NCBI GenBank assembly: GCA_963920765.1
Contig: OY987246.1
Location: 13,388,868 to 13,452,867 of the forward strand
Length of the DNA: 64,000 nucleotides
Origin: Ulota crispa
Taxonomy: Eukaryota; Streptophyta; Bryopsida; Orthotrichales; Orthotrichaceae
Reading direction: 5' to 3'
A program made the position numbers and the translations under genes. The stretch's first letter is position 1. The number at the start of each line of letters is the position of its first letter. Below are positions 10,925 to 64,000 of the stretch, in pieces. Under the pieces are notes generated by a model. The model saw only the letters and a list, made by a program, of their open reading frames with translations. It had not been told where the DNA came from and did not search any database.

Positions 10925-11019
10925 TTAACCCTTAAGCTCCGGGGTGGGTCACCGTAGGTACACGGGCCCCCATGTATCCCCGGAGATGATTTTTGTCCCT
11001 ATCAACGTTGAAGGGTTAA
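10925..11019. mobile_element. TTAA-bounded element 1 (95 bp)
   Basis: Begins TTAACCCTTAAGCTCC and ends GTTGAAGGGTTAA. It is too short to be more than an internally deleted copy or solo-end pair. Its right TTAA is also the left TTAA of element 2. Confidence 0.55.
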
Positions 11020-11934
11020 CCCCTAAAGGACCATTGTCCCTTTCGGGGATAAATGGGATTTTGGGCAAGTATCCACAATCTCAATTTTTGTCTTGATTTT
11101 TTGAAATTTTTCTTGAAGATTAAAAAAACACATTAGCTTTTGAGGAATACAATTTCTATTTCAATATATGCCCATGAGCAAAAGTTATGCCCAAATAAGC
11201 ACAAATTTAGGGAGTCTGGGTAGCAAAAATATTTTACAAAAACTTGATTTCCTTTTTCGTTTTCTTATAGATTATGTTTTTGTCTACACTTGAAGCTTTG
11301 ATTCATTCCATTTGGACTAGTTATGAGAAAGTTATGGACAATCTTGTTTTTGGGCAATTTAAGCACCTCCTTGAAAAAATAACTTTGAAAGTTCATTTTT
11401 GAATGCAATTTCAAAAAAAATTCAAAAGAAATTGTTGGAAAGGGTAAAGTATTCTTGCTAGAACAATCTTCCCATTGGGATTATTGTGTTTCAATTCCAT
11501 TACAAGGTTATTAACAATTTAAGTTTTTGTTCAATCTTATACTTTCTTCTACCTAATTTCTTTTAAGAATGAAAATTAAGTATTTTTTGTTTCAATTTTT
11601 TCTCAAAATTCTCAACTCAACTTCCCACCATAAGGATTGAAACTCCCAAAATCTTTGGTGCAAAAGTTTTAAGTTAAAAAAGTTCAAAGTTGAATAATCT
11701 ACTCATGCAATGTTCAAAAAAGTTTGTTTTTTACACTTTAAACACAAATATCTTGCAATATGTACAATCAAAGTTTTTGAAATTCATTCTACACATTCTT
11801 GTACTAGTCTAATACAAGATCCTATAGTTAAATATGCAAAAGACCAATATTAAAACTTTTTAACTCTTTGCCATAAAAATGACAGTTTTGAGTGTCTTTT
11901 GACAAAATAAAGGTTGCGATCCTTTACAGGTTAA
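11016..11934. mobile_element. TTAA-bounded element 2 (919 bp)
   Basis: Begins TTAACCCCTAAAGGACC and ends GATCCTTTACAGGTTAA, an inverted match over the first 15 or so bases. A short subterminal stem (TGTCCCTTTCGGGGATA) follows the left end. Read on the other strand, the right half matches the left half of element 10 at 56261 (for example CTTTATTTTGTCAAAAGA and GATCTTGTATTAG), so they are copies of one family. No coding capacity. Confidence 0.75.
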
Positions 11935-13009
11935 TTGTGATAATTCTTTCAAGATTTATCTTACTCATCCTTTGAAGTCATTTGACCATCATTTGTAATT
12001 GAAAATGACAAATTGATTTTGAAACATGCTTTTGTTCTTTCAAACAAAGAATATTTGCAAAGAAATTTTTGAAATTCTATATTAAACAAAAATTATAAAA
12101 CCAATTGAATAAACTTATGATAAATGCTGAACAAAACTATAAAATATCTACATGCATGAGATCCACTATCATTAATTCAATGATTTTATATTTGAGTAAT
12201 TGGTTCTTAGGGGTTAATGGTAAAATTAAAATATAAAACACCCGTACCAATATTTACTTTTGTAAAGATCAGGTAGCAAAGAAGAAGGTAGTCTCATATT
12301 ATTTTGATATGTAACCAAAAAACATGCATTAAGAGTTGCAAATTTTCACAGCATTTACAAGAAAATTTGATTAATCTTTAACGACGAGGCGGATGAAAAT
12401 CATCTGCAGGGTATACACTGTGTTAGTGCAACCACGGTGACCGGCCATGATGTTCAAGGATTAACATCCCAAAAAGTAAGGGAAAACAAGAATTCTTCTT
12501 TGTTTTGAAAAATAATTGCCAAAAATACATCAAACCACATGTGGTTAATTTGTCTACTTATAGCAATTAAGGCAATTATATCTTTGTTTCATTCCTTATA
12601 TTTGCATGTTCACTTTTCTATGAAGATTTTTTTTTCAGAGTCACAAATCTTCTTCCAACTCTACTATCATATTACTAAAATCACATTTACCTTTGTAAAA
12701 TCACATCTTGACTTTTTAATATCACATCTCCATTCTACGTGACATCATAGATACATGATATTGACCTCTGTAATATCACAGCTCCACTCTCACATAAGTT
12801 TGAAGACTTACTAAAACTCTTACTTTGCATTCTATCTAACATATAAAAATCCTAATAAAATTCTAATGGTGAATATATATGTAGCGTAGCAAGCGTCAAC
12901 TGCTAATTATCTTTCTAAAATTAAAACACGTGTTTTTAAAAATAGCAATTTTATTTTATTTTCATGTAAAATCATTCATGTATGTACAATGACTATGTGT
13001 TCATCTATA
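11935..13009. other. AT-rich spacer
   Basis: No gene or clear element. A short frame at 12539-12742 is low-complexity and has no support. Confidence 0.35.
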
Positions 13010-13243
13010 TTAACCCTTAAACAACCAAAAGGCCCTTTGCGACCAGTACAATACGGGGTATTTTTCTTATATTTGGAATGGATCCACACCTCTATTACAT
13101 TTGAAACCAACAAAAAAATTGGAGAATAGATCAATACGATTCTAGTGAACTACTTGAGATCCCAAATTAAAATTTCTTATCGGTAGCAAATGACAATTAT
13201 ACGACAGCATATATACTATGCCCTATGAACGTTTAAGGGTTAA
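13010..13243. mobile_element. TTAA-bounded element 3 (234 bp)
   Basis: Left end TTAACCCTTAAACAACC, right end GAACGTTTAAGGGTTAA; the terminal bases are inverted repeats with TTAA at both limits. No gene inside. It lies about 330 bp upstream of the SPF30-like start codon. Confidence 0.7.
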
Positions 13244-13575
13244 GTCAAGACTATCTTTCTGCATATATACCAAATAAGAATTATTATGCACGATAAAAGT
13301 AGTAATAGTTTCTACTAAAAGTAAAAATAGCAGAACGACGATTCCATTTGGAACGGGCCTCCTCTCGCTCTCCTCTCAACTTCAGCCTCCGTCTCTCTCT
13401 CCCGATTGTTTTCAATTCACTTGTCGACGAGCACTCTCAAATCGCAGCTTTGCTTGCAGCTAAACCTCCGAGTTTTTTCACTCTCTTAGAGAATAATCAC
13501 GTCTTGTCGATTGAAGCCGTCGCGTATTTCGGCGAAGCATATTCTCGATTTTTTTTGGCTGGTTTTGGTGACAAG

Positions 13576-16500
13576 ATGAGCCTACAAGACATCGAGGAGT
13601 TGAAGGCTAATCTCTCCACTTACAAAGAGCAGCTTCAACAAGTAAGTGCATATTCCTTATTCATTTTTTCATGTTTTAAGTTGCGAAGTTTGGTTAACAG
13701 TAAAAAAGTTGGCGTTTGTTATGAAGAGAATCGAGGATGACAGTTTCAGGGTTCGGTGTGTGGAGCGCAGGTGAAGGAATTGCTTGTGGCGGAGCCTGGA
13801 AATGGCGAGTATCAAGAGATGGCGAAAGGTCTGACTGAGGTAAGTATGAAATATTCAAAGCCCCTGTGAGTGTAGTAGCGATGCTTGTAAATAATTAGAA
13901 TATGCTGGCACAGTAGGGTTTCTATACAGCGTCAGTGTGTAAGGAAGACGGACGGACGGACAGACCGAGGAGGGAGAAGTCTGTAGTGAGTGTGTTAGTT
14001 AGTTAGTTAGCTAGGGTTTGGAACTGTCCTAAGGATCATCAATGTTGTTCAAGCAGGGCAGCACGACTTCGCTGCATGCGAGAGAGGACCTTTGTCGGAG
14101 TTGCTTTGCAAGGTGAGGTGGTTTATGCCCTATTGGCATTCGATACCAGTGGTCGGGATTTTCTTCTTACACTTACTTTGCTGCGATGGACGTAAAATAA
14201 AAAGGGAAAATATCAAAAGGGAATTGATATGTGCACACTGGGGGGTTGATATTTGCACACCCCCCTGGGAGGTAAATTATAGATTTCTACCATCAAAAAT
14301 TTGAATTTGAGATTTTTGAATTCAGATTTGGACTTACAGACCATGGTTTAGTCTAGAACCATAAAAAGGTTGCAATTGAACAACACCCAATGAAAAAACT
14401 TATCTTCTTTTACAAACAAAAGTAAAAGTAACACTTTTTCCCCTAGCTAAGCTTTTTCATGGGGGTGTTGTTCAATTGCAACCTATTTTATGGTTCTAGA
14501 CAAAATCATGGTCTGTAAGTCCAAATCTGAATTCAAATTTCTCAAATTCAGATTTTTGATGGTAGAAATCTATAATTTACCTCCCAAGGGGGTGTATAAA
14601 TATCAACTCCCCGGTGTGTACATATCAATTCCCATATCAAAAATACTCCTCAATTCTTTCAAAATATCAAATATACCCTGTATTATTTGAAATATAAAAA
14701 AAGACCCCTGGTTTTGTGTAGGAATATCAATTATACCCCTAGTTATCTTTGAGAATATCATTAGAGAGTTAGGGATATTTCTTACAATTCAAATAATACA
14801 AGGGTATATTTGATGTTTCTACATAAAGCCAGGGGTACTTTTGATATTTCAAATAGTAGGGGTATATTTGATATTTTGAAAGAACTGAGGGGCATTTTTG
14901 ATATTTTCCCTAATAAAATGGATGTTCCATCGACTTCCTGCAAGTATACAGCAATTGAATCATTAAAATTTCAGTCGCTCTAATATCTGTAAAGTTTAGG
15001 TCTTGTTGGTGTTGCCCTTTCCTTTCCCCTCATGGTTTATTCAACACATTGATCTGCCAGTTAATCTGGCTTCTTGCAGGTCTTAGAGTTGACCTACGAC
15101 CTGCTCAATGAAGCTCAGCAAGCCAAAGAGGATGCGGAGCAGGAACAGCGTGAAGCTGCGGCTGTTAGTACACAGAGGCCTCCACTTCATCCTTCTGCTA
15201 TTTACAAACCGCATCAGGTAATGCAATTTGGTTTAATTCTGAGCTTGTGGCATGGATTGTTGGGACTTAAGTCTGATCACGCAAGCTTTGAAAAATAGAA
15301 ACCTTGGCAGTGGACGTTCATTGGTTTAATGTTTCCGACATCCAGGGAGCGCTCTCTTTTTCGATTACAATCAGAAAAGTCCTCTGATTATGCATTGGCA
15401 TGTTTCTCGATGCAGGACACGACACATAATATTCCCGCGAGACTTCCAGTTGGGACTAATGTTCAAGCCATATGGAGTGAAGATGGAGAATGGTAGATGA
15501 TTTTTCTATTGGCGGAGTTCATTCTTGTTACCTTTTGCGATTTTAGAGCTAGTTCGTCATCTTGTGCGGAAGAACATGCATGTATATATTCTTGTTGGCT
15601 TGTGAGGTCTGACTTTTTGTATAATTTGGCGATCTTAATGTTTTATTTATTTATTTGTCGTACTTTGCAGTGCCTCCTTGCTGCTTTTAGTTTCGTCGTT
15701 TGGTTAGCTATCAGGCTTTGGAAAAAGGAGTGATTTTGTTTTGGAAGATGTAGTAGTTGTTCTAAATTGCTCATATGTCACTTTTGGGACGTTATGCAGG
15801 TATAAAGCCACAGTGGAGGCGGTTACTCCAGGAGGCTACTTCGTCGTCTACGATGAATGGGGCAACAAAGAAGAGGTGTGTGGTCTTTTTTATTTTTTAA
15901 TTTTTTTAATGTTCTGGTGATTCGGTGGTGCTCTGCTTATTTTTGTACTTTTCTTATGATTTAATAGCCTGGTACTGAAACTTTGATTTGTCTTCTGCAG
16001 GTAGATGCTTCGAATGTAAGGGAATTAAACATCCCAGACGGTGATGCGGAAATTTTAGATCAAATGCTTGGTGGAGTTCCGGCACCTGAGAATTCAAATG
16101 TGGATCCCATGTTCGATGCTGAGCAAGAAGCTAATCTTACTAAGCTTGCTTTAAAGGAAAAGATTTTAGCAGCCGCAGATATAGAGGCTATCCCGAGGGA
16201 CTTGCCCCCAAAGTTGCGAATCAAACCCGAGGATTCCGAGGATGTGGTAAGTGTTACTTAGTTCAACGGTTTAGTAATTTGTTAAAGTGAGGTTAACAAT
16301 GCTTTCATGCTTACGTACACCAATTTGTGAGTAGAGAAAAGTAGCTTAAGAGTTTGTGTTTTCCTTGCAGAGAGCAGCAAAAAAGAAAAAGATCCATGCT
16401 TTCAAGTCGAAGGCAAGACTTGAGCAGATGGAGCTGACACAGAACAAGCGTCAAAATGCTTGGCAGCAATTTCAGACTACTTCTAAAGGGAAAACCAAAA

Positions 16501-16911
16501 AGGTCAGTACCATTTCATTCTGTAGCAGCTACAATGTCTTCCTTGTCAGTATGAGTACACTTTAATCCTTACGTTCCAGTCTATTTCTGGGATGAACTAA
16601 ACAGAAGGAAATCTTCGTTTTCGGAGAAATACAAAGGTAATCGTTGCAAAGAGCTTACTTATGGTGTAGGATCCTGGAATGTGTTTATTTGACAGATACT
16701 GCCCTTTTCTAATGTAGCTCATTGTGTGTTTTTCTAGCAGCAAACGGGTTTCTTTACTGGGCGCAAAAGGGAGAGCATTTTCAAGTCACCAGACGATCCC
16801 AAGGGCAAGGTAGGTGTTACAGGTAGTGGGAAGGGAACTACTGAATTTCATAAACGTGAGAAGCATTTGCACCTAAAAGTAGGTGGCGAAGATGGAGACG
16901 ATTATGTTTGA
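13576..16911 (+). CDS. SPF30: SPF30/SMNDC1-type Tudor-domain splicing factor
   Basis: Eight coding exons: 13576-13641, 13771-13839, 15080-15217, 15416-15492, 15800-15875, 16001-16246, 16371-16502 and 16741-16911 (the last could start three bases earlier at a duplicated AG). All junctions are GT-AG and in phase; the product is 324 residues, close to plant SPF30. The N-terminus LKANLSTYKEQLQQ matches the family opening, which decides the ATG at 13576. The Tudor domain is around residues 100-145 (VQAIWSEDGEWYKATVEAV then YFVVYDEWGNKEEV), with aromatic residues for dimethyl-arginine binding. Two basic blocks follow (RAAKKKKIHAFKSKARLE and TGFFTGRKRESIFKSP). Known: SPF30 helps tri-snRNP join the pre-spliceosome in the nucleus. 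AATAAA overlaps the stop codon end at 16911. Intron 2 hosts nested transposons. Confidence 0.93.
14204..14910. mobile_element. Fold-back element family B, interrupted by a family A element
   Basis: The left end GGGAAAATATCAAAA and the right end TTTTTGATATTTTCCC are inverted repeats, and the arms continue with CTCAATTCTTTCAAAATATC on the left and its complement on the right. Without the inserted A element and its 9-bp duplication, it is about 283 bp. It lies in intron 2 of the SPF30-like gene and has no coding capacity. Confidence 0.75.
14219..14633. mobile_element. Fold-back element family A, copy 2, nested, with 9-bp target duplication
   Basis: Begins GGGAATTGATATG and ends CATATCAATTCCC, with long inverted arms as in copy 1. 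The bases ATATCAAAA occur directly on both sides (14210-14218 and 14634-14642). The uninterrupted right arm of family B shows that the target held this 9-mer once. This is a 9-bp target-site duplication, typical of Mutator-type elements. Confidence 0.85.
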
Positions 16912-17583: not shown

Positions 17584-18204
17584 TTAACCCATGAATGCCG
17601 AGGTGGACGGGTTTTGTCCGCTAGATTTTTTTTTTAAAAATCTCTGTAGGATGGAGAAAAATCGTTTCTCATTTGGTTTTTTTGAAGAAATGATTATGGA
17701 AATATAGTCTAAGGTAGTCGCTCTAAAACCGTCACTTTAAGGGCTGTTCTGGATTTTCATGGGCTTTCCAAGACATGAAGATTTTCTGCCTAATTTTCCG
17801 TCAAAGAGAAATGGATGCTAAATGTAATCCAAATTTTTACATACTTTTTGAAGCATTATTGAATTGTTGATGAATTTTCAAAGTTTTTTGTAGTAGACAC
17901 ATATCTGTGACTCTAGGTTTTTCATAAAGCATCTCATATCCATTTTTGGATTGGCTATGGAATGTTTTAAATGTGAGGGTTGCAATTATAGCATACTACC
18001 TTATCATGGAAGGCAAAAACAACCTCACCAAATGTACACATTTTTTAGGTTAGTTAATTTGTGAGAAGATTCATAGACATGGTGTTAGGTCTCATGTTAC
18101 CCTTGTTGCAATTTTTGTGAGAGCAACATGCACTATTAACTCCTGCAACTTTTGAAAACAATATTATAATGGTGGCCACTTACCAGCCCCGCGTTAGGGG
18201 TTAA
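17584..18204. mobile_element. TTAA-bounded element 4 (621 bp)
   Basis: Left end TTAACCCATGAATGCC, right end GCGTTAGGGGTTAA. A subterminal stem GGACGGGTTTTGTCC follows the left end. Its interior (for example GAAGCATTATTGAATTGTTG) recurs at 33900-34070 inside another, end-less copy. Confidence 0.65.
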
Positions 18205-20472: not shown

Positions 20473-20519
<47 letters not shown>

Positions 20520-23590: not shown

Positions 23591-23591
23591 T

Positions 23592-24239
23592 TTAACCCCT
23601 AAATGCTCTAGGCCTTTCTGAAGTTCTTGGCATTTTCAGGAAAGTGCACAATCAACCAACCTTTTCATAAATCTCATCAACTTTTTTTAAACTGTAACCG
23701 TACAAATTTAAACTTGACATGTTAGAGATTACATGGAAAAAGAAAACACAACAATATCATTTGTAGTTTGAAAGATTATAATGTTTGAACATGAGGGTGT
23801 TAAAATTGTAAAAGTGACTTGAAGTCTTCTAATCCTCATTTCACATGTCAAATCTAAAAAGTTGGTCATCAAAAAAATATGAGGTTTAAGGTCATTACAT
23901 GTTTAACCTCAACCAATTTATGGTTTTCAAAATCTACTCCTATATGTTTTTGGATTTCTAATGTGGATTTTTCCCCAAGCTCTAGTGTATTTGAGGCTCA
24001 TTTTCAAGATCTTCCAACACTAGAAAACTCAAGATTGCAGTGGACACCCTTGTACAAAATCTTGAATAGGAAAATCATCAACACTCATTTGCAAAATCAG
24101 ATTTTTGATACTGAAAATAGACTTCAAAACAAACTTATGTTCAAAAAAAATACCAAAAATTGTGATTTGATCAAAACATTATTTACCTTCAAAGTTTTGC
24201 AAACACCCAAATTGGGTGCCTTGGGCATTTCGGGGTTAA
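23592..24239. mobile_element. TTAA-bounded element 5 (648 bp)
   Basis: Left end TTAACCCCTAAATGCTC, right end GGGCATTTCGGGGTTAA, inverted. The interior is related to element 9 at 34147 (GTTAGAGATTACATGGAAA-type block and CAACACTAGAAA). The 121-codon frame inside has no recognisable domain and I do not call it a gene. Confidence 0.75.
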
Positions 24240-24408: not shown

Positions 24409-25316
24409 TTAACCCCTACTGGCCCAAGCCCATTTTTTTTGTAAAAGTCACCACAACTCTCACTTTTAGGGAATCATTAAAAAGATAGGAAAGAAGTTTT
24501 TTTTGAAAATTCAACCATAGGATTTTGCCCAAGACAAGACTAAGGTAGGTACTTGTGGATTTCAATGAAGAGAAGTGAGATATTGACATCCAAATTTAAA
24601 AAACTCTTTCTTCTTGCCCCAAATTTTCACAAGTCTTTAACCACTCTTCTAGCAAAAAATTGCTCTACACAAAGTTGAGGTTTGATTACTTCATGTAATA
24701 AAACAAGTTAGGTATATGTGGGAAAATTTTCAAATGAATTGGAGGTATACAATGTATTATGTAAAATCTTTGAATGTCTGAAGGTCATAAACTTTGCAAA
24801 TACGCTAGGCAAAATTGGAGGCTTTATGTAAAATTTAGAAACTTGAATTACTTTGATCCAAATGGTGAAAACCAAGGAATCTTAGGCTATTACAATTTGG
24901 AAAAAAAAAGAAAAGAACAAATATGCAAACCACTAAAAAAATTAAAGTACCAAATTTCACAAGGGACAAAAGGAATGGAGGATTGGGAGACCCCCAAGAT
25001 GGGCCCTTTTCATTCCACTCCCCTTTACCCAAGTGTTCACACCTTGTGTCCGTGAGGGCTAACCCTCTTTGGAGTCAACAACCACTTACAAAAGAGAAGC
25101 CCTACCCAAACCGCACATCCTCTTTTGATTTTGGAAATTCTTGCATAACTTCTTTATCAAATATTAGAAAGAAGAAAAAATTAGATACCCTTGTTGTTAT
25201 TTGAAATTTTCACCTTCAATAAAAATTTCAAAAAATCACATAAACTAGTTTAACTATATGTACATACCCAAAATCCATTTGTCCTTCAAAGGGACACTTG
25301 GGCCTTGAGGTGTTAA
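24409..25316. mobile_element. TTAA-bounded element 6 (908 bp)
   Basis: Left end TTAACCCCTACTGGCCC, right end GGGCCTTGAGGTGTTAA. A subterminal stem GTCCTTCAAAGGGAC lies inside the right end. The right end block with TACCCAAAATCCATTTGTCC matches elements 10 and 11. Confidence 0.7.
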
Positions 25317-25518: not shown

Positions 25519-26578
25519 TTAACCTTTAAAGGGCGGAGCTACTATAATACATAGTATGTATGGTGCTATATAATTGGCATTTGTTACCAACAAAAAGTTT
25601 TAATTTGGGATCTTGAATACCTCACTAGAACAACATTGATCTACAGTGATTATCAAAATTGTCTCAATGTTTGCTTAGATGTTAAGCTTTTTTTGAATAT
25701 CTTCACTATATATAAGTGGCATTTTATCCTCAGATTTTTTGTGTGTGATCCTTGTGCAATCATGATCAAGCATACCAATTTTCAGTTACTAAAAACCAAA
25801 ATTCTATTTTTGGTAAATTTTTTTGTGTCAAAATCAAGAAAGTTGATCAAAAAACATTGGTGATGAATTTTTGAGATTTGATTGCATGAATATGTTGGAG
25901 ACATCCATACGCACATCTTTGCCTCAAACAAATTTTTCCAAAAAAAATCTAAAAGAATTCTAAAAATGTTTTAATTTTAGGCCAAATTTAGTAAACTTGA
26001 TAATTCTTCATGGAATCTATTTTTTGGCAAAAGAAACATATCCTCATGTTTAAAGGTACAAACATAATCACAACATGTGAGTTATTTTGCCAAAAAATAG
26101 ATTCCGTGAAGAATTATCAAGTTTACTAAATTTGGCCTGAAATCAAAATATTTTTAGAATTCTTTTGGAAATTTTTGTTTGAAGCAAAAATGCGCGTATA
26201 GATGTCTCCAACATACCCATGCAATCAAATCTCAAAAATTCATCACCAATGTTTTAATCAACTTTCTTGATTTTGACACAAAACAATTTACCAAAAATAG
26301 AATTTTGGTTTTAAGTAACTAAAAATTGGTATGCTTGATCATGATTGCACAAGGATCACACACAAAAAAATTGAGGATAAAATGCCACTTATATATAGTG
26401 GAGATATTGAAAAAGACTTGACATCTAAGCAAACATTGAGACAACTTTGGTAGTCACTGTATATTCTAACTCCTTTGTTGATCTTAAATGTAATAAGGTT
26501 GTGAATGCACTCCAAATACAAGAAAAATACCCCAAATTGTACTTGTCACAAAGGGCTGCTTTGTCCTTTTGGGGTTAA
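25519..26578. mobile_element. TTAA-bounded element 7 (1,060 bp), long palindrome
   Basis: Left end TTAACCTTTAAAGGGCG, right end TGTCCTTTTGGGGTTAA. The two halves are inverted copies for about 250 bases; for example GGCATTTTATCCTCA at 25718 and its complement near 26377. A related half copy is at 50316-50725. Confidence 0.75.
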
Positions 26579-30122: not shown

Positions 30123-30528
30123 GGGAATTGATATGGACACACCCTGCATTTTATATATGCACACCCTATGGGTAGATTTTAGATTTTTACTATCAAAAAG
30201 TTGAATTTGAGAAGTTTGAATTTAGGTTTGGACTTAAAGACCTTAATTTAGTCTTGAACCATAAAGGAGGTTACAATTGAACATCACCCAATGAAAAAGC
30301 TTAGCTTTTATTACAAATAAAAGTAAAAATAATGATTTGTTCCTTAGTTATGCTTTTTCATTGGGTGTTGTTTAATTGTAATGTCATATATGGTTCTAAA
30401 CTAAATCAAGGTCTGTAAGTCCAAATTTAAATTCAAAATTTTCAAATTCAAATTTTTAATAGTATAGATCTAAAATTTACCCCGGGATGTGCATATATCA
30501 AACCTTGGGTGCGTTCATATCAAGTCCC
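30123..30528. mobile_element. Fold-back element family A, copy 3 (406 bp)
   Basis: Begins GGGAATTGATATGG and ends CATATCAAGTCCC. Arms and loop match copies 1 and 2 (AATGAAAAAGCTTAGC, CATTGGGTGTTG). It is the most diverged of the three. No convincing target duplication is left. Confidence 0.75.
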
Positions 30529-31354
30529 TAATTTTTGTGTATAACTGAATTGTTGACATGAAGAATACATCTTTATTTTAAAAATATGAAACGATACTAA
30601 ATTCTTCAATAGATCAAACATAAACAGAAGTAAGCTTACACAACATGGCCAGAGTGCCCCTCAACACTGTCATTTTGACTTCAGTCCCGTGTAAACAGAA
30701 ATAAGGCCCAAATAATAGATGGACATTATGCGGTACCTAACTTTAAATCACATAATGTATTAATGTCACTTGTAAAATATTTTAAAATGAAAGTAATCTT
30801 AAAAAGAATCATTACTAAAAAGGACTCCTTTTGCACTCTGCACCTTACAAGATTTTAAATTGGACAGAAATCTTTTAAAAATCCTTACCCCTGGTAAGTT
30901 AATTAATGTGAAAAGGTAACGGAATGTCATCTATCAAGTTATCTACCTCGAGAACCATGAATGCACATGATGCCATCATGCCATGGTGATCACATCGGGC
31001 CAATTAACCCCATGATTACAGCAACTGTTCCCATGTTTGAACTCCAAGAGCTGAAGGTGTTCCCAAGGACCCCCACTGGAGAGGCGACACCTCACCCCCA
31101 ATACACAATAATAATGAATGAGGAGCCCATCATCATGTATACATCACCAACAGTAGTGTGGTACTAATAAGTTAGGTGTTCGGTAGAAGGCTTTGGATCG
31201 TAGAAGAAAAGAGAGGGAGTAATTCTAGCCTACAATTCAAATGATTTGTTGGGAAAGTTCAACCCTAAGCATCATAAATTCTGTAGCTTTCTATGTACTT
31301 TTGTCTTACCCTTGGTGTCATCAAGAGTGAAGACCAGTCCAAGTTTCAAATTCT
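30529..31354. other. Gene-free stretch
   Basis: A slightly GC-richer patch at 30950-31170 contains a 68-codon frame without recognisable motif. Nothing else seen. Confidence 0.35.
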
Positions 31355-32276
31355 TTAACCCCTAAAGGACCAGGCAAAGATTTCATCCAAATTCTCCAAA
31401 ACTGCCATTTTTAGAGCATCAACCAAATTTGAAAACAAAAACATTTTTATGCATATGCTACCGTAGGATCTTGTAGAAGAATGGCTTAGAAGGTGTGGAA
31501 AAAAAATTCAAAGTTTTCCACCACATGGATTGGAAGTTAGAATGGTTTGAATATTCAAAAACATCTTGTGAAAAACCGGGCACCTACCCTTCAGAAGGTG
31601 AAATTTCTTAGGAAAAAAGGCCATGTGGGTGGTGCTCCTCTAAATTTCTTATTCCACCTAAGTAAAGTACATGTCAAAAAAGTCTCAAATCATTTGGAGT
31701 TGTATAACATATGAAAAAAAATTAGTAAGTAAAAAGAAGTAGAGAATGATCAAAGCACTAAATTGTTAAGAATTTAATTATGGAAATGAAAAATGCCAAT
31801 CCCAATGGTCATGATGTTGTAATAAACAATCTACATCCTTTTGTTTTGTTTTTTTTCCAAAATGTTGGAAATTGAGTAAAATAAAGGACTTCAAAGATTA
31901 TTTTGGAGTAGAGAATCCATAACAGCTTGCAAACAAAAAATCCTCATAACTTTCATCTTGTTGATCAAAATGGAATGATTTGAAGCTTCTTGCATTCACA
32001 TAAATCTCCTAAACCAATTTCAATTTTTTTTTTTTTTGAAAATTTTGATTTAAAAAAATCTGCCCAAGCTACCTACTAAATGTAAAAAGCAACATATCAA
32101 GCCATAACTTTTTACTCATAATTCCAAATGTCATGAAATTTAATGCATATGAAAGATAAACCTTGTCCCCACATTCTGTTAAATTTTCAACCTAAAATAT
32201 TAAAAAATCCAATCACAAGTACGTGCTCGAAATCGCTATGTTTCTAAAAAAGGGGGTTTGATCCTTTAAGGGTTAA
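31355..32276. mobile_element. TTAA-bounded element 8 (922 bp)
   Basis: Left end TTAACCCCTAAAGGACC, right end GATCCTTTAAGGGTTAA, inverted over about 15 bases. The left end is identical to those of elements 2, 10 and 11. No coding capacity. Confidence 0.75.
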
Positions 32277-34146: not shown

Positions 34147-34796
34147 TTAACCCCTCAAAGCCCATGCACTTTCTCAAGTATCTCAGAATGTGTTCTTGGA
34201 TGAACAAAATGTCAACATTTTGATAAGTTGCATCAACCTTTTTAAAATTGTAACCATACAAATTCAAACTAGATATGTTAGAGATCACATAGAAACAGAA
34301 AACACAACAATATCACTTATGGATTGAAAGATTATAACATTTGATCAAGAGGGTTTCAAAACTATGAAAGTGATTTGAAGTCTTTCAATCCTCTTTTCAC
34401 ATCTCAAATTTAAAAATTGAGGATACCAAAAAAATATGAGTATGTAAAGTACAACATGTGTAACCCTAATCAATTTATGGCTTCATAAAATATACTCTAT
34501 AACTTTTAAAATTAAGTTTCTAATGTGATTGTTTCTCCAAGTTCTATTGTACTTTAGGCTCATTTCCAAGAGCTCTCAACACTAGAAAGTGAAGATTTGC
34601 AATGGACACCCTTGCACCTTATCTTGAATAGAAAAATCATAATCAATCATTTTCAAAATCAGACTTTTGATACTAAAACAAGACTTCAACAAGAACTTTA
34701 AAAAAAAGATCATTGTAATTAATCATGAAGAATTTAGGCATCCCAAATTACAAACAAGGAGGTATAGTTTTGGTCCCCTTGGGCCTTGAGGGTTTC
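34147..34796. mobile_element. TTAA-bounded element 9 (650 bp), right end mutated
   Basis: Left end TTAACCCCTCAAAGCCC; right end GGGCCTTGAGGGTTTC, where TTAA has become TTTC. The interior aligns with element 5. An old copy. Confidence 0.6.
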
Positions 34797-41700: not shown

Positions 41701-43584
41701 CTAGCACTTCGGAGAACGACTCGACTGAGAAGTTCATTTGTAAGGAAAGTTCTCCTACTCGGGCTACAGGTGCAAAAGCACGTTCCTCAGGTGCTGTCAG
41801 ATTGAAGCTATCAAACGAAAGAGCTGAATGTCTGGAAGCCTCTCTTACGCTGCTCAAAGAAGCGGATTGGAGCTCGCCAGCAACCAATGACCCGATCTCT
41901 CTTGATGCATCCGGTAGCTCAAATGCGGATGTTCAGTTTCAGACTCCTTCAGCACAGCCACAACCTTCAGATTCTGTCATGGAGCATCTTGTGGCGGTGA
42001 AAAGGGCAAAACTAGGGTCATTCGAGGAGCCCAGTGATTGTCAAACATCACAAGTGCAAACCTTTGAAAACGTCTCTGCAGGTGATCCATGCGACGATCT
42101 TTCACAGCCTTCATTTTCTGGATATTTTGGAGCTATTCCAGAAGGACCTCAACCACTGCTTCAGGTGGGTTTACTGAGAGAAACATTCACCAACTGAGCT
42201 CATCATAATGCTTAACTTTCCGCTAATTCTCATATGACTTGTACTATAATTTTTCTACTATCAGCTGCTAAGAGTGCCTGTCCCTGGTATGCAGATGCAG
42301 GAGGTTAAAGCCAATGAGGAACTGACAACACCCCGGGGTGATCAACTGAACTACGAAAGACTGTATGACAAGCGAGCTGAAGCGATGGGTCGACCAAGCC
42401 CTGTCTCTGTCCTGGACACCACTCCTTTCGAAGAGGATCTCTCGCCCAGTCCAACGAGTTCTTCCAAGCAGAATATCATAGCGGTGCAAGGTTAGCATTA
42501 CATCCGGCCTGTCTACAAATGGTGATTACCATTTCCACATAATTCAGCTTAGAGCACAACTAAGAATATCTTCATGAAATCCAGGCTTTTGTTTACAATA
42601 ATTTCGACCTTTGCTCTTGATGCAGATTCTGTGGGTATATGCAAGGACGAGGAACACGAAAGTATTGCCAAAGATTTGCAGGGTTACCAGGACACTGCTT
42701 CTGCAGCTATCGAAGCCGATCAGGAGTTGGATGAGCTTCAATCTTATTTCAAGGATGCAGAGAGCGAGGAAATGACGACGTTTGTGGAGAGATGCTCGTC
42801 AGAAGAAACTGCAACAACATGCGAGGAAGCTCCGCGGAATTCATGGGCATTCGACAAACCTAAGATGAAACAACAAAGCACGGAACTTATCAATGAGAAT
42901 TTACTGCAGAGTCTGCAAAGTAGCGGGATACTCCAAGAGAACGATCACGTCCTCTTGCTGGATTGCCTGGAGGAAATCATGGAGCGAATTCTGGAATCGC
43001 AATCCGACCACATGCTCTGGGCAGGGCTCCCTCCCGACACCGTCTGCGAGATACCGAGAGGCAAGCAACTCGAACAAGAGCTCTGGACCGAGATGCAAAA
43101 CATGAAACGGCCTTCATCCTCGGACGGCATCTGCGAAACAGTGCACGACCTGTTGCTGAAGAACCTACTGCGGTGTCACGGACGACAGTGGTTCACTTTC
43201 AACGCTGATCGTGAAATATTAGGATTAGATATAGAGAGCATGATAGCAGGGGACTTGGTAGAGGAAACTGTGGAAGACTTGTGCGCACTCCAATGCCGCA
43301 AGTCGAAAGAGCCTCCTCTTCTCGATGACATATTAGGATTAGATATAGAGAGCATGATAGCAGGGGACTTGGTAGAGGAAACTCTGGGAGACCTGTGCGC
43401 ACTCCAATGCCGCAAGTCGAAGGAGCCTCCTCTTCTCGATGAAATATTAGGATTAGGTATAGAGAGCATGATAGCAGGGGACTTGGTGGAGGAAACTGTG
43501 GGAGACCTGTGCGCACTCCAATGCCGCAAGTCGAAGGAGCCTCCTCTTCTCGATACAACTCGGAGACAATTGTTTACATACTAG
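38725..43584 (+). CDS. TRM/LONGIFOLIA-like protein (TON1-recruiting-motif family), start exon not found
   Basis: Exons 38725-38920, 39323-41168, 41273-42164, 42265-42490 and 42626-43584 join without a phase break to 1,372 codons plus stop. Exon 2 may start three bases later (two AGs). Family signatures in order are LDCMTRIFHIFEGHPTFMGR (N-terminal motif), VNVVARLMGLEKEIPG (DUF3741-type motif), RPSPVSVLD and, at the C-terminus, SMIAGDLVEETVGDL (DUF4378-type). Much of the middle is serine-rich, basic and probably disordered. Known: TRM proteins bind microtubules and recruit TON1 and PP2A to control cortical arrays, division plane and cell shape. No in-frame ATG lies between the stop at 38722 and the N-terminal motif, so either an upstream exon supplies the start or ctctag at 38724 is its acceptor. 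The C-terminus holds a 38-residue triplication. Confidence 0.85.
43213..43554 (+). repeat. Three 114-bp in-frame units at the end of the TRM-like gene
   Basis: Units at 43213-43326, 43327-43440 and 43441-43554 encode 38 residues each, with MIAGDLVEETVGDLCALQ and CRKSKEPPLLD in all three. The units differ by only a few bases. The repeated part is the conserved last motif of the family, so the protein would end with three copies of it. Confidence 0.95.
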
Positions 43585-45767: not shown

Positions 45768-47179
45768 TCATGACCCCCCCTGGTGGGTAACAAGGGAGTA
45801 AATCTGGGTGCCAAGTCCCACAAAGCTAACAGCGACGGCCATAACCACCATACCCCAGGCGAGGGAGAGGCTCTCATAGGCATGCTTGCCCCGCTTAAAC
45901 TTAGACCTAATCACAACCAGAGCCGGAAACCCAAACCCTAAAGACAACCCAGTAGTAGCACCCGTGAACTGAAACGCAACCCATATATTCGGAATCACAG
46001 TAGACCCCAAAAACGTCAACACCAGCAACACGAACGTCAACACACCAAACCGGTACTTCGATTCCGACCGACTCGGGAACAGAACAGCATCAATGGTTTG
46101 ACGCAATGAAAAGTGAATCACTGGGAAGACGAAGACGAGATGAAGAACGTAACCGACACGAATGCAGTCGTTCAGCACACGACTGAACGGGATGCCCAGA
46201 TCCGTGTCGAAATTAGCCAGCACGTCGGAGTTGGTGAAGTCGCCGAACATGAGGTACCCGGAGAGCGCGGTGGCGGAGTAGACAAGCACACAGAGCAGCG
46301 CCGTGATGCGACCCACTTTGAACATCTTCACCGGAGTGCGGTCTTTGAGCTCGAGGTAGATCAACGGGACGTTGAAGTGGCATACGAACGCGTTCGTCAT
46401 GATCGGTATCACCGTGAGCAGTTCCAAAATGGCGCGCTTGGATGAAACCGATGGTAGCATTCGCGGCGGGGTGGTTAGTTTGCCTGTTGCAAGCTTCGCA
46501 ACGGCGATGGCGGACGCGAGCACGACGAAGAGCACCGCGAGCGCGACGGACGCGGCGGAGGTGAACTTGAGCGAGTCGATCTTGCGGAGTGACGAGAGCG
46601 GCGCGAGCACGACGACCATGGTGATGAAGACGATGATCTTGCGGTTGTTCCACCATCCGGATGCGCCGGTCCAGCCTTCCAGCAAGCCGATGTGATTCTC
46701 GGAGCCTGAGAGCACGTCGCCCATGATGATCAGGTACACGGTGAGCACTCCGGCGTTGTTCACGACGATGCAGAATTTTGATAATGCTCCTGCTGCCCAG
46801 CCCATGGCTTCTGCGACTAAGTCCCCGTACGTCCATAATTTTGTGAGTGCCAAGTTGTGCACCAGCATCTCGATTGAGAGCTCTGAGAGGAGTCCCATGA
46901 GCATGATTGCGAACAGGCCCAGGGGTATGCCCAGCACGCGCATGGTTGCGGGGAGTGCCATGATGCCTGCTCCGATGATGGTCGTCGAGAGGTTGAAGAC
47001 TGCGCTCCCCACGTCGGCTGTTGCGAGCTCCGCGCCATGGTCGTTAGTCGTGGTCGCTGTGTCTGAGGATGGCGTGCTGTGGTTTAGTAGCGGTCGCTCA
47101 TCTGCGGGTAATCTCTCGCGGTCTGTCCCATGATGCGTCCCTGTCTCGCAACATCCGCCACCCAACAATCTTAGCCCAC
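45768..47179 (-). CDS. AVT/SLC38-type amino-acid transporter, main exon
   Basis: A minus-strand frame of 469 residues. FNLSTTIIGAGIMALP near the start is the conserved first membrane helix of the amino-acid/auxin permease (AAAP) family, vesicular AVT/SNAT branch. About eleven hydrophobic segments follow, including IPIMTNAFVCHFNVPLIY (conserved helix) and ATALSGYLMFG. The stop is at 45768-45770 and the length fits AVT6-like proteins. Known: these carriers move neutral or acidic amino acids across vacuolar, ER or plasma membranes. The frame has no ATG before helix 1 and meets an in-frame TGA upstream at 47181-47183, so the start must come from another exon. An acceptor tttgag at 47180 gives the phase needed by the exon at 48233-48449. 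A tandem duplication touches exactly this exon edge. Confidence 0.85.
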
Positions 47180-47607
47180 CTCAAACTGAACTATACCATT
47201 GAATTCAAAGGAAGATTTCATGGATACCCCTGAAGTTTGCAATGTTTTCATAGATACCCCTGCTTTTTCAGAAATTGCACAAATACTCTTGGACCATAAT
47301 TTTTAGGCATTTATTTGTTGTGCTCGTACTTCTTTCATGACTAATGTTGAAGAAAGGATTGTAAGTAATCTCGCGTTCTGTCCCATGCGTCCCTGATCTC
47401 GCAACATCCGCCACCAACAATCTTAGCCACACTATACCATTAAATTCAAGGAAAGATTTCATGGATACCCCTGGAGTTTGCAATGTTTTCATAGATACCC
47501 CTGCTTTTTCAGAAATTGCACAAACACCCTTGGACCACATTTTTTAGGTGGGTTTCTTTTGTTGTGCTCGTCGTACTTCTTTCATGACTAATGTTGAAGA
47601 AAGGAAT
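47109..47607. repeat. Tandem duplication of about 258 bp spanning the exon edge and half a family C element
   Basis: The segment beginning TCTCGCGGTCTGTCCCATG at about 47113 recurs at about 47369 (TCTCGCGTTCTGTCCCATG). Each copy runs through CGCAACATCCGCCAC, ACAATCTTAGC, CTATACCATT and the left arm of family C to CTAATGTTGAAGAAAGG. The first copy contains the 5' part of the transporter exon, so a fragment of coding sequence lies duplicated in the intron. Confidence 0.85.
47210..47366. mobile_element. Family C left half, created by the tandem duplication
   Basis: Begins GGAAGATTTCATGGATACCC as in the full element at 47450 and stops where the second duplicate unit begins. Confidence 0.75.
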
Positions 47608-47772
47608 GTAAATGAAACAGAAAAAAAAACAATGTGTGAGGGAAGTGGCATGCTGCACAACAAAACAAACGCCTCTAAATTTTGGGTCCAAGGGTATTTG
47701 TGTAATTTCTTAAAAAAGCAAGGGTATCTATGTAAATATTGCAAACTTTGGGGGTATCCATGAAATTTCCCC
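47450..47772. mobile_element. Fold-back element family C (323 bp) with 9-bp target duplication
   Basis: Begins GGAAAGATTTCATGGATACC and ends GGTATCCATGAAATTTCCCC, with inverted arms of about 130 bases (CCTGCTTTTTCAGAAATTGC on the left, its relative on the right). TAAATTCAA precedes and TAGATTCAA follows, a 9-bp duplication with one mismatch. Mutator-type by inference. Confidence 0.8.
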
Positions 47773-48232
47773 TAGATTCAAACTGCAAACGAGGAAACAA
47801 GTTTTTGATAAACTTCCCCCATCCTGAGCGCGTGATGATGATGGTCTACTCATCTTGAGTAGCTGGAGATTGTCTCTCTATCTCAAGCACGTGAAGATCA
47901 TCTCCCAATACTAAGAGTATGTTCAGTGTTAAGAGTGGTAGTAACCAAGGAAAATTAGATGCATTTGAACACACTTTTAAACTACATTCATATTGCTAAT
48001 ACCCCTCCTAACACCAAGTGTGAACATACCCTAAGCCTTTGAAAATGACCTTAACACCTAGTGTGTACATACCCTAACAAGCCTTTGGAAATAGCTGGCC
48101 TCCCCATCTCGAGCACCACGAGCTGTTGAAGCTGCTCGAGATGGATATGCATGGATTAGGGTTTAGTTCCACAGACAACTAGATGAGGATGAGAGTGAGA
48201 TTAAAGAGCTATAGTGACGATTATGAACTGAC

Positions 48233-49043: not shown

Positions 49044-49050
49044 TTTATTT
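49007..49050. repeat. (ATTT)n microsatellite
   Basis: Runs of TTTTATT and ATTT units. Confidence 0.8.
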
Positions 49051-49082
49051 TTGTGCAGGTGTTGCCTTTCATTTGTGTGTAA

Positions 49083-56260: not shown

Positions 56261-57181
56261 TTAACCCCTAAAGGACCATGGCCTTTATTTTGTCAAAAGA
56301 TACTCAAAATTGCCACTTTTATGGCAAAGAGTAATTTTTTTTGAAGATTGGTCTTTTTGCACATCTAATTGTAGGATCTTGTATTAGATTTGTATAAAAA
56401 TTTGGAAATAAAAATTCAAAAACTTCGATTGCATAGATTGCAAGATATTTGCGTTCAAAGTGTAAAAAACAAGCTTTTTTGCACCTTGCACAATTAGATT
56501 ATTTGACTTTAAACTTTTTTAACTTAAAATTTTTGCACCATGGGGTTTTGAGGTTTTTTTTGTATGGTAGGGAATTGAGTTGAGAATCTTTGGAAAAAAA
56601 CCAAAACAAAAAATACTTAATTTTCATTCTTTAAAAAAACATTAAATAGAAGAAGGTTTGAGATTGAACAAAATCTTACATTGTTAATAACCTTACAATG
56701 GAATTGAATCACAATAATTCCAATGGTGAGATTGTTCTAGCAAGCAATCTTCAACCTTTCCAATAGTTCTTTTTGCAAAAATGTTAAATTTGCATTCAAA
56801 ATGAAGTTTATAAGTTATTTTTTCAAAGCAAACCCACACCTACCCACAAACTCAAACTTCTCATAACTTTCATCTCATCTATCAAAATTCAATGATTCAA
56901 AGCTCCCCACGTCTATATAAGTCTAAAGAATCTATTTCAGATTTTTATTAAAAAAAAACAGAATTTTTAGAGAAGTTTTTGGCTGCCCAATCTCGCCTAT
57001 TTTTAGAAATTCATGCATAACTTCTTCAATAAATGTTGGAATGAAGAAAAATTACATTTCCATGTAGATCTTTGAATTCCTCACCTTCAATAAAAGTTTC
57101 AAAAAATCACAAAAATTAATTTAACCATAAGTACATGCCCAAAATTCCATTTGTCCCCTGTAGGGACAAGTGGTCCTTTAA
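56261..57181. mobile_element. TTAA-bounded element 10 (921 bp), first of a chain of three
   Basis: Left end TTAACCCCTAAAGGACC, right end AGTGGTCCTTTAA. The right subterminal stem is TGTCCCCTGTAGGGACA. The left half matches the right half of element 2 on the other strand. Its right TTAA is shared with element 11. Confidence 0.75.
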
Positions 57182-57902
57182 CCCCTAAAGGACCAACTGT
57201 CCCCTCAGGGGACAATTGGATTTTGGGCATGTACTTATGGCTAAACTACTTTGTGTAATTTTTTGAAACTTTTATGGAAGAGGGGGAATTCAAAGATCTG
57301 TGTGGGCATCTAATTTTTCCCTCATTCCGACATTTATTGAAGAAGTTTAAAATGAATTTATGAGAATTTTTGTTTGGTGGGCAGCCCAAAAACTTCTTTA
57401 AAATTTGCATTTTTTGAAATATAAATTTGAGGTTAGTTCTTTAGACTTATGTATATGTGGGAAGCTTTGAATCATTCAATTCTAATTGATGAGATGAAGA
57501 TTATGAGAAGTTTTAGTTTGCATGTAGGCATTGTTTTGAGATTTTCCACACCTACCCGCAAACTAAAACTTCTCATAACCTCTATCTCATCAATTAGAAT
57601 TGAATGAACCAAAGCTTCCCACATATACGTAAGTCTAAAGAACTAACCTCAAATTTTTATTTAAAAAAAATGCAATTTTAAAGAAGTTTTTGGGCTGCCT
57701 ACCAAACAAAAATTCTCATAAATTCATTTTTCACTTCTTCAATAAATGTCGGAATGAGGGAAAAATTAGATGCCCACACAAATCTTTGAATTCCCCCTCT
57801 TCCATAAAAGTTTCAAAAAATTACACAAAGTAGTTTAGCCATAAGTACATGCCCAAAATCTCATTTGTCCCCCATAGGGACAAGTGGTCCTTTAGGGGTT
57901 AA
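57178..57902. mobile_element. TTAA-bounded element 11 (725 bp), near-perfect palindrome
   Basis: Left end TTAACCCCTAAAGGACC, right end GGTCCTTTAGGGGTTAA, exact inverse. The two halves are inverted copies over most of the length, meeting near 57540. Stems TGTCCCCTCAGGGGACA and TGTCCCCCATAGGGACA lie inside the ends. It shares both terminal TTAA sites with its neighbours. Confidence 0.85.
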
Positions 57903-58129
57903 CCCTTGAACGCCTGTTGGGTTCCTAGGATACAACATTGTATTCTACCCATTTTCAAGCATTTCTTTGTGTATTTTGTGCCGCCAAAGGTCGCACTGAG
58001 AACACCTTTACAACAGAGACCACTTCCATTTACATTGTGACCCCTAATTCCATCTCGGACCCCTCAAATCCATCGTATACAGATATATACACATGGCCAC
58101 AGAGGGCCTTCTGGGCGTTCAAAGGTTAA
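57899..58129. mobile_element. TTAA-bounded element 12 (231 bp)
   Basis: Left end TTAACCCTTGAACGCC, right end GGGCGTTCAAAGGTTAA. It ends about 535 bp upstream of the dapF start codon. Confidence 0.75.
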
Positions 58130-58299
58130 GTTCTGTATTTAGGCCTGAAGCAAATTTAGACCGTTTTTTGCTTCAGGATCACGTCTGGATGAACCTCTGC
58201 CGCTTCATAAAATGAAATCCCAGGTCCTGGATGAAATCACTCGTCCAAAACTGAATGTCCAACCAAAGCTTCAATTATCCAAACCTCCAAAACCGAATT

Positions 58300-58440
58300 T
58301 TCATTACCGAAGCTCCAGACCCGAATCTCATCACCGAAGCTACCGACCCGAAGCTCATTACGGAAGCTCCAAACCCGAAGCTCACTGCCGAAGCTCCAAA
58401 CCGAAGCTCCACTTCCGAAGCTCACAGCCGAAGCTGCCTC
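58300..58440. repeat. Short tandem repeat CCGAAGCTC(N) upstream of dapF
   Basis: About eleven units of 12 bases with the core CGAAGCT. They stay open in the dapF frame, giving an RSSRPE/HYRSSKPE-like string, but lie upstream of the more likely start. Confidence 0.8.
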
Positions 58441-58664
58441 TCTCTCTAAATCCTCATTCCGTCTTCTCGTCCCATCAGCGCAGCCATTTGGGAGTTTTGC
58501 GGCTACCGAAGGCTTTCGCCGTTGCAAATTCCCGCCAGCTGAAGAAATTAGGCAAAGATACCGTAAGAGAGGGATTACCTCTTCCAACTGCAGGTCGAAT
58601 TTGCGTTTTTGAGACGATTTTTGTGTCAGGATTTCCGAGTGATTGTACAGTTTTGGCAAGGAGC

Positions 58665-61218: not shown

Positions 61219-61506
61219 GGCAGAGTGATTTAGATCAGCTTAATACAGGGTTTAGGCAGATCTCTGCCTATCTTTTTTTTCCCCAGCCTGCTTGGCAGGC
61301 ACTCTGTATCTGGCTGATCAGCGGCTCCTTTGCCACCTTGTTCTGAAGCAAGAGTATTTTCGTCTTGCAGCTTAGTGTAAATTTTTTCGGTATCATTTAC
61401 GTTTTTCTTGCATCATTGCTCAGCTTTCGTGCTGCCAATTCCCGTTGACCTCTCTTTTACTTGAATATTGCTTTCTCTTGTCAATGATTGCTTGGGATAT
61501 TTTCTA

Positions 61507-61799
61507 GGGAAAATTTCATGGATACCCCTGAAGTTTGCCACATTCACATAGATACCCTTGGTTTTTCAGAAATTACACAAATATCGTTGGTCCATAATTT
61601 TCAGGCGTTTATTATATTGTGCATGCCACTTCTTTCTCCCTTGTGCACGTTGCTGGCACTCCTTGTTATGAAAGAAGTGGCATGCGCAGTATAACAAATG
61701 CCTGAAAATTATGGACCAAGAGTATTTGTATAATTTCTGAAAATCCAGGGGTATGTATGTAAATATGGCAAACTTTAGGGGTGTCCATGAAACTTTCCC
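61507..61799. mobile_element. Fold-back element family C (293 bp) with 9-bp target duplication
   Basis: Begins GGGAAAATTTCATGGATACC and ends GGTGTCCATGAAACTTTCCC. The arms are inverted for about 120 bases and include GAAGTGGCATGC and its complement. TATTTTCTA precedes and TATTTTCAA follows (one mismatch in nine). It lies in the 3' flank of dapF. Confidence 0.85.
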
Positions 61800-62869
61800 T
61801 ATTTTCAATCGTATGTGGCTGTTGTAGTTTCATTGGTAATACTGGACTCTTGAAGTGGGTGAACTTCATGCCATGCTTATCCACGTGTAGAAAATCGTGC
61901 ACAATATTCCAATATTCTAGATACTTGTTCTACTGAATTCACAGGTATGGTGTTCTTCATAGACCTGATTTGCATCTAATCATATTTGCTTGTCTAAATG
62001 TACAGGAGGATAATGTGCAAACCTTGGTCGTAGATTCCCATGGGAAAGTGCACCTGAGTGAGTTTTTCTGTCTCGTCCTCATAAGTAAGTTACTAATGTA
62101 CAGTATGCGTCCCTCAGAAACAAAATCTGGGCTCAACCAAGTATCGGAATTTTGCCTTCACAAATGCAACCTTCCATTACTCTTGACGGGATTTAAAACC
62201 TTAGACGAAAAAAATTGAGTTATTTAGAGGCATTTATTTCTGACAAAAAATATCAATTTTCTGATGCAAAACCGAGTCTTCTCGTGAGAAAATCAGACTT
62301 TTTTATGCACCTAGCAAGGTGTGCAAGCTTGGACAAAACAAAAACAAGAGTTGATACTATTGTAAAAAATAAAAAATCAGGTATTTTTATTGACAAAAGG
62401 TGTTTAGCATGCCGCTTCCACCCTACCTTGACTCAAACTTGGTCAGATGCTCTTTAATTGATTTCAATATTAATTTCAAGCACAATTGGTCGTAAATTAA
62501 AAAATCAGAGTTAATCTAGTTTTGTGGTCAAGCTGACTTTAACTTGTTGAATCCACATTTCACAATAGTGCACCGAAGGTGCTAAAACACAACAAAAGTT
62601 GACGATACAACAGATGTTTAGCATTTTGACAACAAGATATGTTGTAACATATATCAATACATATTATAATAGAATTGACTGCATGCATTGGTAGTGTGCA
62701 GTAGGCTTTTCTTTTTCTAGCTTATTGAATCAGATTTTTGTTGCCAATACATCTATGCTAATGTCATACTTACCCACCCAACTAAGAGTCTTTCATTCCC
62801 TTGGAAAAACCAAGTGATCCATGCCAAACCTAGAGGTACCTACCTAGGCAAGATTCTTTCCATTTCCAA
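61800..62869. other. Spacer
   Basis: Two 80-82 codon frames (61970-62457) have no recognisable domain or splice support. Nothing else seen. Confidence 0.35.
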
Positions 62870-62991
62870 CAACATCATATTCATTAAATTGGGAATTTTG
62901 TAACATTTTGAGATTAAGTTGACCAACTTAAACTGACCATTACGGTACAACTTGGGAATCTGATTTTCCCAATTTAATGAATATGGTGTTG
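62870..62991. mobile_element. Inverted-repeat element, family L copy 3 (about 122 bp)
   Basis: Left end CATCATATTCATTAAATTGGG, right end CCCAATTTAATGAATATGGTG, inverted. Short derivative of the family seen at 5348 and 50914. Confidence 0.7.
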
Positions 62992-63168
62992 AACCAACCA
63001 ATACTTAGTGGATACTTAACTAGGTGAAATTTAGCTATGTATTTGCTGAACAATTTTCATTATTTGTTGTTTACTAATTGCCTTTAGTTCTTCCACATTT
63101 AGACTGTCCTTTTGCAAAGATGAACCGGTTACTATTACTCTAATACTACTCTTCATAGCTCAAGAGTG

Positions 63169-63940
63169 TTAACCCCTAAGCGCCCAGCCCAGAACTCGCA
63201 TTTCGAGGGTCGAGAAGAGAAGTTTATAATCAACCCATCGCCTTTGACTCAGAAATAAGATCCGGTTGAGTTGGCCGTTGAAATTGAGGGATAACTACCG
63301 GGTGAAGGTCCTCCCCAAATTGCACAAACATTCACCATACGGTGTGGAATATTATATCAGTCAAACAATGGTTGACTTTCAAATTTAGGGGGCAGAGCGA
63401 GTGGTTTCAGACCTTCCAAAAAATCTCAAAATTTGAGTGTATGGCCCCAGTATTTGAATTTCATGGAGCACGTAGGGTGGGCGGGGGGGGGTTGTCTGTG
63501 GACCTACGAAGTTTCAGAAAATTTTGAGGTGTAGAAGATCCCCATTTGCAAGCCCGAACTTGAAGGTCTATCCCATGCCAAGCCAGAGGGACCGGGAGCC
63601 GAGTACGGCTTGCACTGACATGTAGGACGGAGAGCCGGTGGAAGGGGCTCTACGCGCGGTTTAGTCAAGGCTCCCGTGGTTCCTAACCGGTTGCAGCAGG
63701 TCTTCCCGGTCACTGCTTTGGAGGCACTTCTTCATAAAGTCCAAAACTGGAAATCCACTCGCAAATTATGGGGAGAAATTGCACGGCAGACACTAAACCG
63801 TCAATCGCCCACTACGTTGTACTAAAGCAAGACACCCCCTCTGCACTGTACCTCTGTGGGGGCATACAGCCACGACCGTTGCCCTCATTTTGTTCTTAGG
63901 AGAGGCAAAATCTGGGGATGTGGGGGCACTTAGGGGTTAA
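63169..63940. mobile_element. TTAA-bounded element 13 (772 bp), GC-richer
   Basis: Left end TTAACCCCTAAGCGCCC, right end GGGCACTTAGGGGTTAA. A stem CTCGCATTTCGAG follows the left end. The interior is more GC-rich than the other copies. The 69-codon minus-strand frame inside has no motif. Confidence 0.7.
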
Positions 63941-64000
63941 CCCGTGAGCACCCCGAGGTAAAATCCAAAAAGAGAGCTTTGGGGGACCACCACTCAGTTC
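63937..64000. mobile_element. TTAA-bounded element 14, left end only
   Basis: TTAACCCGTGAGCACCC starts on the right TTAA of element 13 and runs off the window. Confidence 0.5.

Follow-up and report, generated by a model that had tools for sequence, protein, structure and literature searches.

The stretch of the moss Ulota crispa analysed here (64,000 nucleotides, C5:13388868-13452867 of a 274.8-Mb assembly in 157 contigs; hereafter the window) contains a set of elements bounded by the tetranucleotide TTAA, and these are very probably non-autonomous transposons of the piggyBac superfamily, of the type known as miniature inverted-repeat transposable elements (MITEs). Directly seen are the TTAA boundaries, TTAA-sized empty sites in paralogous copies, transposons with similar ends and, for one group of these transposons, short derivatives. 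From these we infer that a transposase of this kind moved the window copies, by cut-and-paste. The kind of element is already known; it is notable here for its host and its scale.

Cut-and-paste chemistry, carried out by a DDD (three-aspartate) transposase that binds the terminal repeats, is a feature of those piggyBac elements that have been studied. In the moss, a DDD transposase of the piggyBac type, with its gene at another place in the genome, would recognise TTAACCC(C/T)TNA..G.CC-like terminal repeats, excise the element at TTAA and insert it at another TTAA, leaving TTAA on both sides.

TTAA-bounded elements of the window

A preliminary description of this DNA had listed fourteen positions at which TTAA is followed by CCC(C/T)TRAA-like bases. 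TTAACC indeed opens all 14 and TTAACCC 13 of them (25519 reads TTAACCT), the strict pattern TTAACCC[CT]T[AG]AA fitting only seven. Most of the element boundaries are supported by copies elsewhere, a clean right end being missing in at least three cases. The size range given, 95 to 1,060 bp, matches the elements listed below, and their description as non-autonomous agrees with the lack of any open frame inside them that reaches 150 codons. Agreement of the terminal inverted repeats (TIRs) is given as matching bases out of 20, other loci of the genome carry L numbers, and the strand is. except where + is stated.

10925..11019: 95-bp TTAA-bounded element, its right TTAA common to the next element; TIR 12/20
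11016..11934, strand +: 919-bp piggyBac-type MITE with TIR TTAACCCCTAAAGGACCA, 14/20; end-to-end match to L006 594-1518, 83%
13010..13243: 234-bp TTAA MITE; TIR 16/20; pieces of L040; L076 2517-2725 at 80%
17584..18204: TTAA element with a supported left and a doubtful right end; ends agree at 10/20
23592..24239: 648-bp MITE of the ...ATGC class; TIR 17/20; L039 8302-8955, 76%
24409..25316: MITE of about 908 bp with a decayed right end; both ends match L004 (1519-1163, 766-579)
25519..26578: 1,060-bp composite, the weakest of the set; TTAA ends (TIR 14/20) enclosing a large fold-back
31355..32276: 922-bp MITE; TIR 16/20; full-length match to L001, 70%
34147..34695: MITE of the 23592 class; 34142-34695 matches L039 8297-8849, 80%
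56261..57180, strand +: MITE of about 920 bp with a truncated right end, left end TTAACCCCTAAAGGACCATGG; L006 1518-602; L004 1519-587
57178..57902: 725-bp end-to-end palindromic MITE, arms of 315 nt, 94% complementary; L008 1501-2208; L074 2616-3337
57899..58129: 231-bp MITE, its TTAA common to the preceding element; placed by the limits of its copies
63169..63940: low-copy TTAA element of 772 bp with TTAACCCCTAAGCGCCC as its left end; TIR 16/20
63937..64000: left end TTAACCCGTGAGCACC of one more element, which runs beyond the window; placed by its start sequence

The two TIRs agree at 14-18 of 20 bases in eight of the window pairs, at 12/20 in the 95-bp element and at 10/20 in 17584-18204, and in three elements the comparison found no measurable right end. 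Weak or damaged limits are the right ends of 17584, 24409, 34147 and 56261 and all of 25519-26578, for which a relative with that end exists for the right 119 bp only. The left end of 34147 matches L039 8302; its right end was looked for and not found. For the element at 11016 a right end at 12217 had been considered and was replaced by 11934 on the L006 match. Rfam returned nothing at gathering thresholds. The main TIR, TTAACCCCTAAA, includes CCCTAAA, which is the plant telomere unit, probably by coincidence.

The label of fold-back elements, some of them near-perfect palindromes, proved to be overstated. Only one of the 13 elements tested is palindromic throughout (57178-57902, self-complementary from end to end like its relatives in L008 and L074) and one, 25519-26578, has an internal fold-back, while no fold-back was detected at E<=1e-3 in the remaining 11 of 13.

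The motif TTAACCC/GGGTTAA occurs 27 times in the window, compared to a mean of 10.1 and a maximum of 18 in 30 first-order simulations, and a longer end motif occurs eight times against a simulated mean of 0.03. Genome-wide, the 18-mer TTAACCCCTAAAGGACCA has 7,555 exact matches (3,781 + 3,774; reversed control 0 + 0), and the looser end pattern TTAACCCYTNANNGNCC, which offers annotators a handle on short, diverged copies, has 31,318 (15,685 + 15,633; control 4 + 5). The window is ordinary in loose ends (8 compared to 7.3 from the genome mean) and rich in strict 18-mers (5 compared to 1.8 expected). Its elements cover 8,653 bp, or 13.5% (12.2% if the inner fold-back of 25519-26578 is left out), in line with the earlier figure of about 14 percent. 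Six 6-kb stretches were sampled at round coordinates that we chose. Matches to a library of 31 elements account for 1,618 of their 36,000 bases (4.5%), all in two of the six, and the sampled share is about 7% once two elements known by their ends alone are included (L079 1777-2573; L075 from 5820). We put the genome share at 4-13%, a rough range from small samples.

Element limits and target sites

Among 11 copies (55 pairs) of a 967-bp family, the identity immediately within the two TTAA ends is 95% and 86%, and directly beyond them it drops to 28% and 27%. Over the whole length these copies are on average 89% identical (range 85-95%), being alike by choice, since nine of the 11 were the top matches of one query. 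Similarly, most sampled copies of the window elements bear out the expectation that homology stops at TTAA. The limits of 57899-58129 are kept in 36 of 39 other scored copies for the start and in 36 of 39 for the end, with 3/39 exceptions, and the sole other copy of 63169 begins exactly there (1/1). For 10925-11019, 35 of the 39 other scored copies begin within two bases of 10925 and four do not; the query stopped at the right end of this element, where overrun is invisible. The largest fraction of exceptions was found for 17584, with 11 of 18 other copies beginning within two bases and seven beginning elsewhere. Neighbouring copies may share one TTAA (10925/11016, 57178/57899, 63169/63937, and L043 together with its MITE), an arrangement consistent with a newer copy having entered the TTAA that borders an older one.

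In the search for empty sites, the two flanks of an element were placed on either side of a single TTAA; this was done for 25 detected and 4 added elements, wherever at least 60 bases lay on each side. Matches spanned the joined flanks of five elements, of which L053, L049 and L064 were kept; L047 and W_57178 were dropped, their spanning matches lying within the same locus. In the three cases kept (11 aligned copies) the alignment runs through the site with one 4-base position, and one copy, at W 34321, has gaps next to it. One of the empty places of L053, L084, was fetched and reads AAGG-TTAA-AGGA, with no element and a single intact TTAA. The repeat hosting the L053 insertion is itself a TTAA MITE (L084 1327 starts TTAACCCCTAAATGCC), and its family must be older than the insertion, since the insertion sits in a copy of that family. 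Thus, of the empty sites with one intact TTAA that the preliminary description had called for in related strains, a retained TTAA-sized site was obtained in paralogous copies, and the intact TTAA itself was read in L084. Duplication of the TTAA target on insertion is found to this extent, at paralogous sites.

piggyBac transposases and their short derivatives

The autonomous partner that had been predicted exists in the same genome and is of the piggyBac type. Among 116 scored of 528 candidates, PF13843 gave 120 match rows with a best E of 1.3e-73, several of them within TTAACCC-ended elements, and it had matches in 0 of 14 control genomes. Seven transposase regions of 8-9 kb (L039-L045) were read, as well as eight pairs of end regions of one transposase group, clade B; the groups, or clades, A, B and C are named from pairwise matches and not from a tree. 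A frame of 472 residues in L043 matches the solved piggyBat (3.6e-18) and Transposase 6x67 (6.6e-16), and its aspartates at 191, 276 and 387 stand in matching contexts when aligned with piggyBat; L042 has N at the third aspartate position. A transposase-bearing element of 5,027 bp is present in two copies which are 90.5% identical from TTAA to TTAA (L039 1263-6290 and L040 1497-6523), with TTAACCC at both ends in L039 and a left end that now reads TTCACCC in L040. In L041 the TTAACCC ends lie at 696/5797, in L042 at 729/7335. In the eight clade-B copies whose end regions were read, both ends start TTAACCC in five and the right end starts TTAACC in seven, and at C5:17378513 neither end is seen in the stretch fetched; with the 18 bases that open the window type, the clade-B ends agree at 11-16. 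Transposase-bearing piggyBac elements with ends of the same kind as those of the window elements are, hence, part of this genome.

Two of the transposase loci show further peculiarities. The frame of L043 3951-5369, whose gene lies at C8:19570950-19572365, contains an in-frame insert of about 31 residues which is not present in its relatives and may be a retained intron or a small insertion. L044 3650-5341 (C1:1180709-1181995) encodes a divergent piggyBac transposase in two stop-free open pieces about 270 bp apart, which may be an intact or domesticated gene.

The closest transposon end that was read is the right end of C7:2697503 (TTAACCCATTAAGGACCATGG), equal to window element 56261 at 19 of 21 bases; over the 14 window starts the agreement with this end ranges from 11 to 19 of 21. 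With 150 bp of this end as query, 45 candidates were obtained, and 40 of the 40 scored reach the TTAA end, where the query itself began and overrun is invisible. The four best matches away from the listed transposases are L080 and L081, of about 639 bp and 92% alike, and L082 and L083, of about 409 bp and 87% alike. Each retains some 190-280 bp of the left and of the right clade-B end without the middle, the left TTAA of L083 being mutated. Since both ends are kept and the middle is lost, clade-B transposons evidently give rise to short internal-deletion derivatives. Judged from their sequences, the parent of the window families is not pinned down among the elements read. L045, in which a MITE end lies ahead of the transposase, had been considered as a parent and was rejected, the MITE being truncated and its remaining end not found downstream.

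We lean slightly towards the view that piggyBac elements flooded a land-plant lineage, several divergent transposase groups with end variants of their own having produced a large share of the DNA transposon load of this moss (perhaps 4-13% of its genome, judging by small samples), with one or two transposase genes maybe still intact.

Weighing the assignment

Several observations weigh against the assignment to piggyBac. Ten of the 11 locally aligned empty copies carry a 4-base site other than TTAA, and TTAA is found in one; all empty sites are paralogous copies within one genome and not orthologous sites from another plant. In the genome search with the joined flanks of L053, the best 40 of 2,329 candidates all span the join at 91-94% identity, spanning being favoured because the best-scored places were listed. 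Stop codons occur in 110 of the 120 PF13843 rows and are absent from 10, so that present activity is unproven. Between the window families and the transposons read, likeness is confined to about 20 bases at the termini, and a match in the interior was not found. The right end of L043 had appeared to be a transposon end common to the MITEs (1,216 candidates as a query) and had to be given up, since 6849-7815 is a complete adjoining MITE; the L043 transposon stops right before it, ending TTGACCCTTTAAGGACCG.

It might be hypothesized that other piggyBac families, extinct or unread, gave rise to the window families, which the groups found may then have cross-mobilised. This would refine the assignment rather than compete with it, and we regard the matter as evenly balanced. 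The confinement of likeness to the ends, the mismatch at two of 21 bases between the main end class and its closest clade-B counterpart, and the stops in most transposase rows all speak for such a descent. On the other side, only the seven transposase regions and eight clade-B end pairs were read, of 116 scored candidates, and a closer parent may for this reason simply be among those unread.

Kolobok and Sola3 elements also use TTAA, and elements of either type might have moved the copies, the piggyBac genes being coincidental. For this origin it can be said that the superfamilies cannot be told apart by their TTAA target, that the main window family has no direct parent among the elements read, and that Kolobok/Sola transposases were not searched for. 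Against it, piggyBac elements of the same genome have ends alike at up to 19 of 21 bases and yield short derivatives. In addition, TIRs of 12-19 bp with a CC[C/T]T motif, which the window elements possess, and TTAA duplication are piggyBac hallmarks according to the excerpted text of a study on coral MITEs (PMC2872659). We therefore consider a Kolobok or Sola3 origin improbable. That the segments are tandem or palindromic repeats produced by replication errors can practically be dismissed: one family is palindromic throughout and some copies abut, but copies occur on all contigs C1-C10 with unrelated flanks and empty counterparts, including the clean single-TTAA site of L084.

Comparison with known piggyBac systems

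piggyBac is best known from animals, and in plants it serves as a tool for genome work. Taken as piggyBac-type MITEs, the window elements resemble the CMITEs of the coral Acropora, which are described as piggyBac-derived in the available part of that report (PMC2872659). As described there, CMITEs resemble the moss elements in duplicating TTAA, in their ends of the CC[C/T]T type, in having a partner that is piggyBac-like and in occurring as multiple copies in arrays; their partner AmiPB1, with the left TIR CCCTTTCCCGTCC, has its TIR and a weak internal similarity in common with them. Hence, the earlier suggestion that the window holds something undescribed does not stand for the kind of element. 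The differences lie in the host, an animal there and a moss here, and in the moss elements ranging from 95 to 1,060 bp, with one palindromic family and 31,318 matches to the loose end pattern. With regard to the solved structures of piggyBac and piggyBat (PDB 6x67, 9c0f), the L043 frame can be aligned across the catalytic region, where the contexts of all three aspartates correspond. In sequence it is distant from both, and the moss elements read measure 5.0-6.6 kb, compared to the figure of about 2,472 bp in PMC10813416.

Records from plants likewise weigh against novelty. The accessible text of PMC10813416 states that piggyBac has been isolated from plants too, and that of PMC10794571 names PiggyBac among the plant DNA-transposon superfamilies. 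A repeat table of the fern Ceratopteris has a PiggyBac row (1230, 122417, 0.00; PMC6890710), a green-plant record of the superfamily at trace level, the elements being undescribed in the passage concerned. The moss genome paper PMC10619864 was discarded as a record, since both matches in the text searched read 'expression piggybacking'. Our literature search, outside of which lay most subscription papers and bioRxiv preprints, turned up no description of piggyBac elements or MITEs native to a moss, and the literature searched held little on native plant piggyBacs in general. With full-length elements, deletion derivatives and MITEs by the thousand in one moss, their origin, horizontal transfer, the matching of ends to transposases, and seamless excision can be put to the test in a plant.

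Other repeats and genes

A repeat of about 400 bp that matches itself in both orientations, and is thus a fold-back repeat, occurs at window positions 5959-6287, 14217-14633 and 30125-30529 and in L003 and L043; it lies outside the TTAACCC-bounded set. A second fold-back repeat is located at 47205-47781 and 61502-61801, and a relative of it carries an inserted TTAA MITE (L064 527-762). Host genes of the window are those for an AAA ATPase (8316-9098) and a DUF4378 protein (42553-43584), together with an amino-acid transporter frame of 470 codons (45768-47180). One marker places the genome among the mosses: the product of a LEAFY exon (L072:1507-1821) has 103 of 105 residues in common with PDB chain 4bhk (E 7.5e-72), which we take to be the LEAFY protein of Physcomitrium; the other four solved LEAFY sequences found are clearly more distant (E 6.9e-51 to 2.2e-30).

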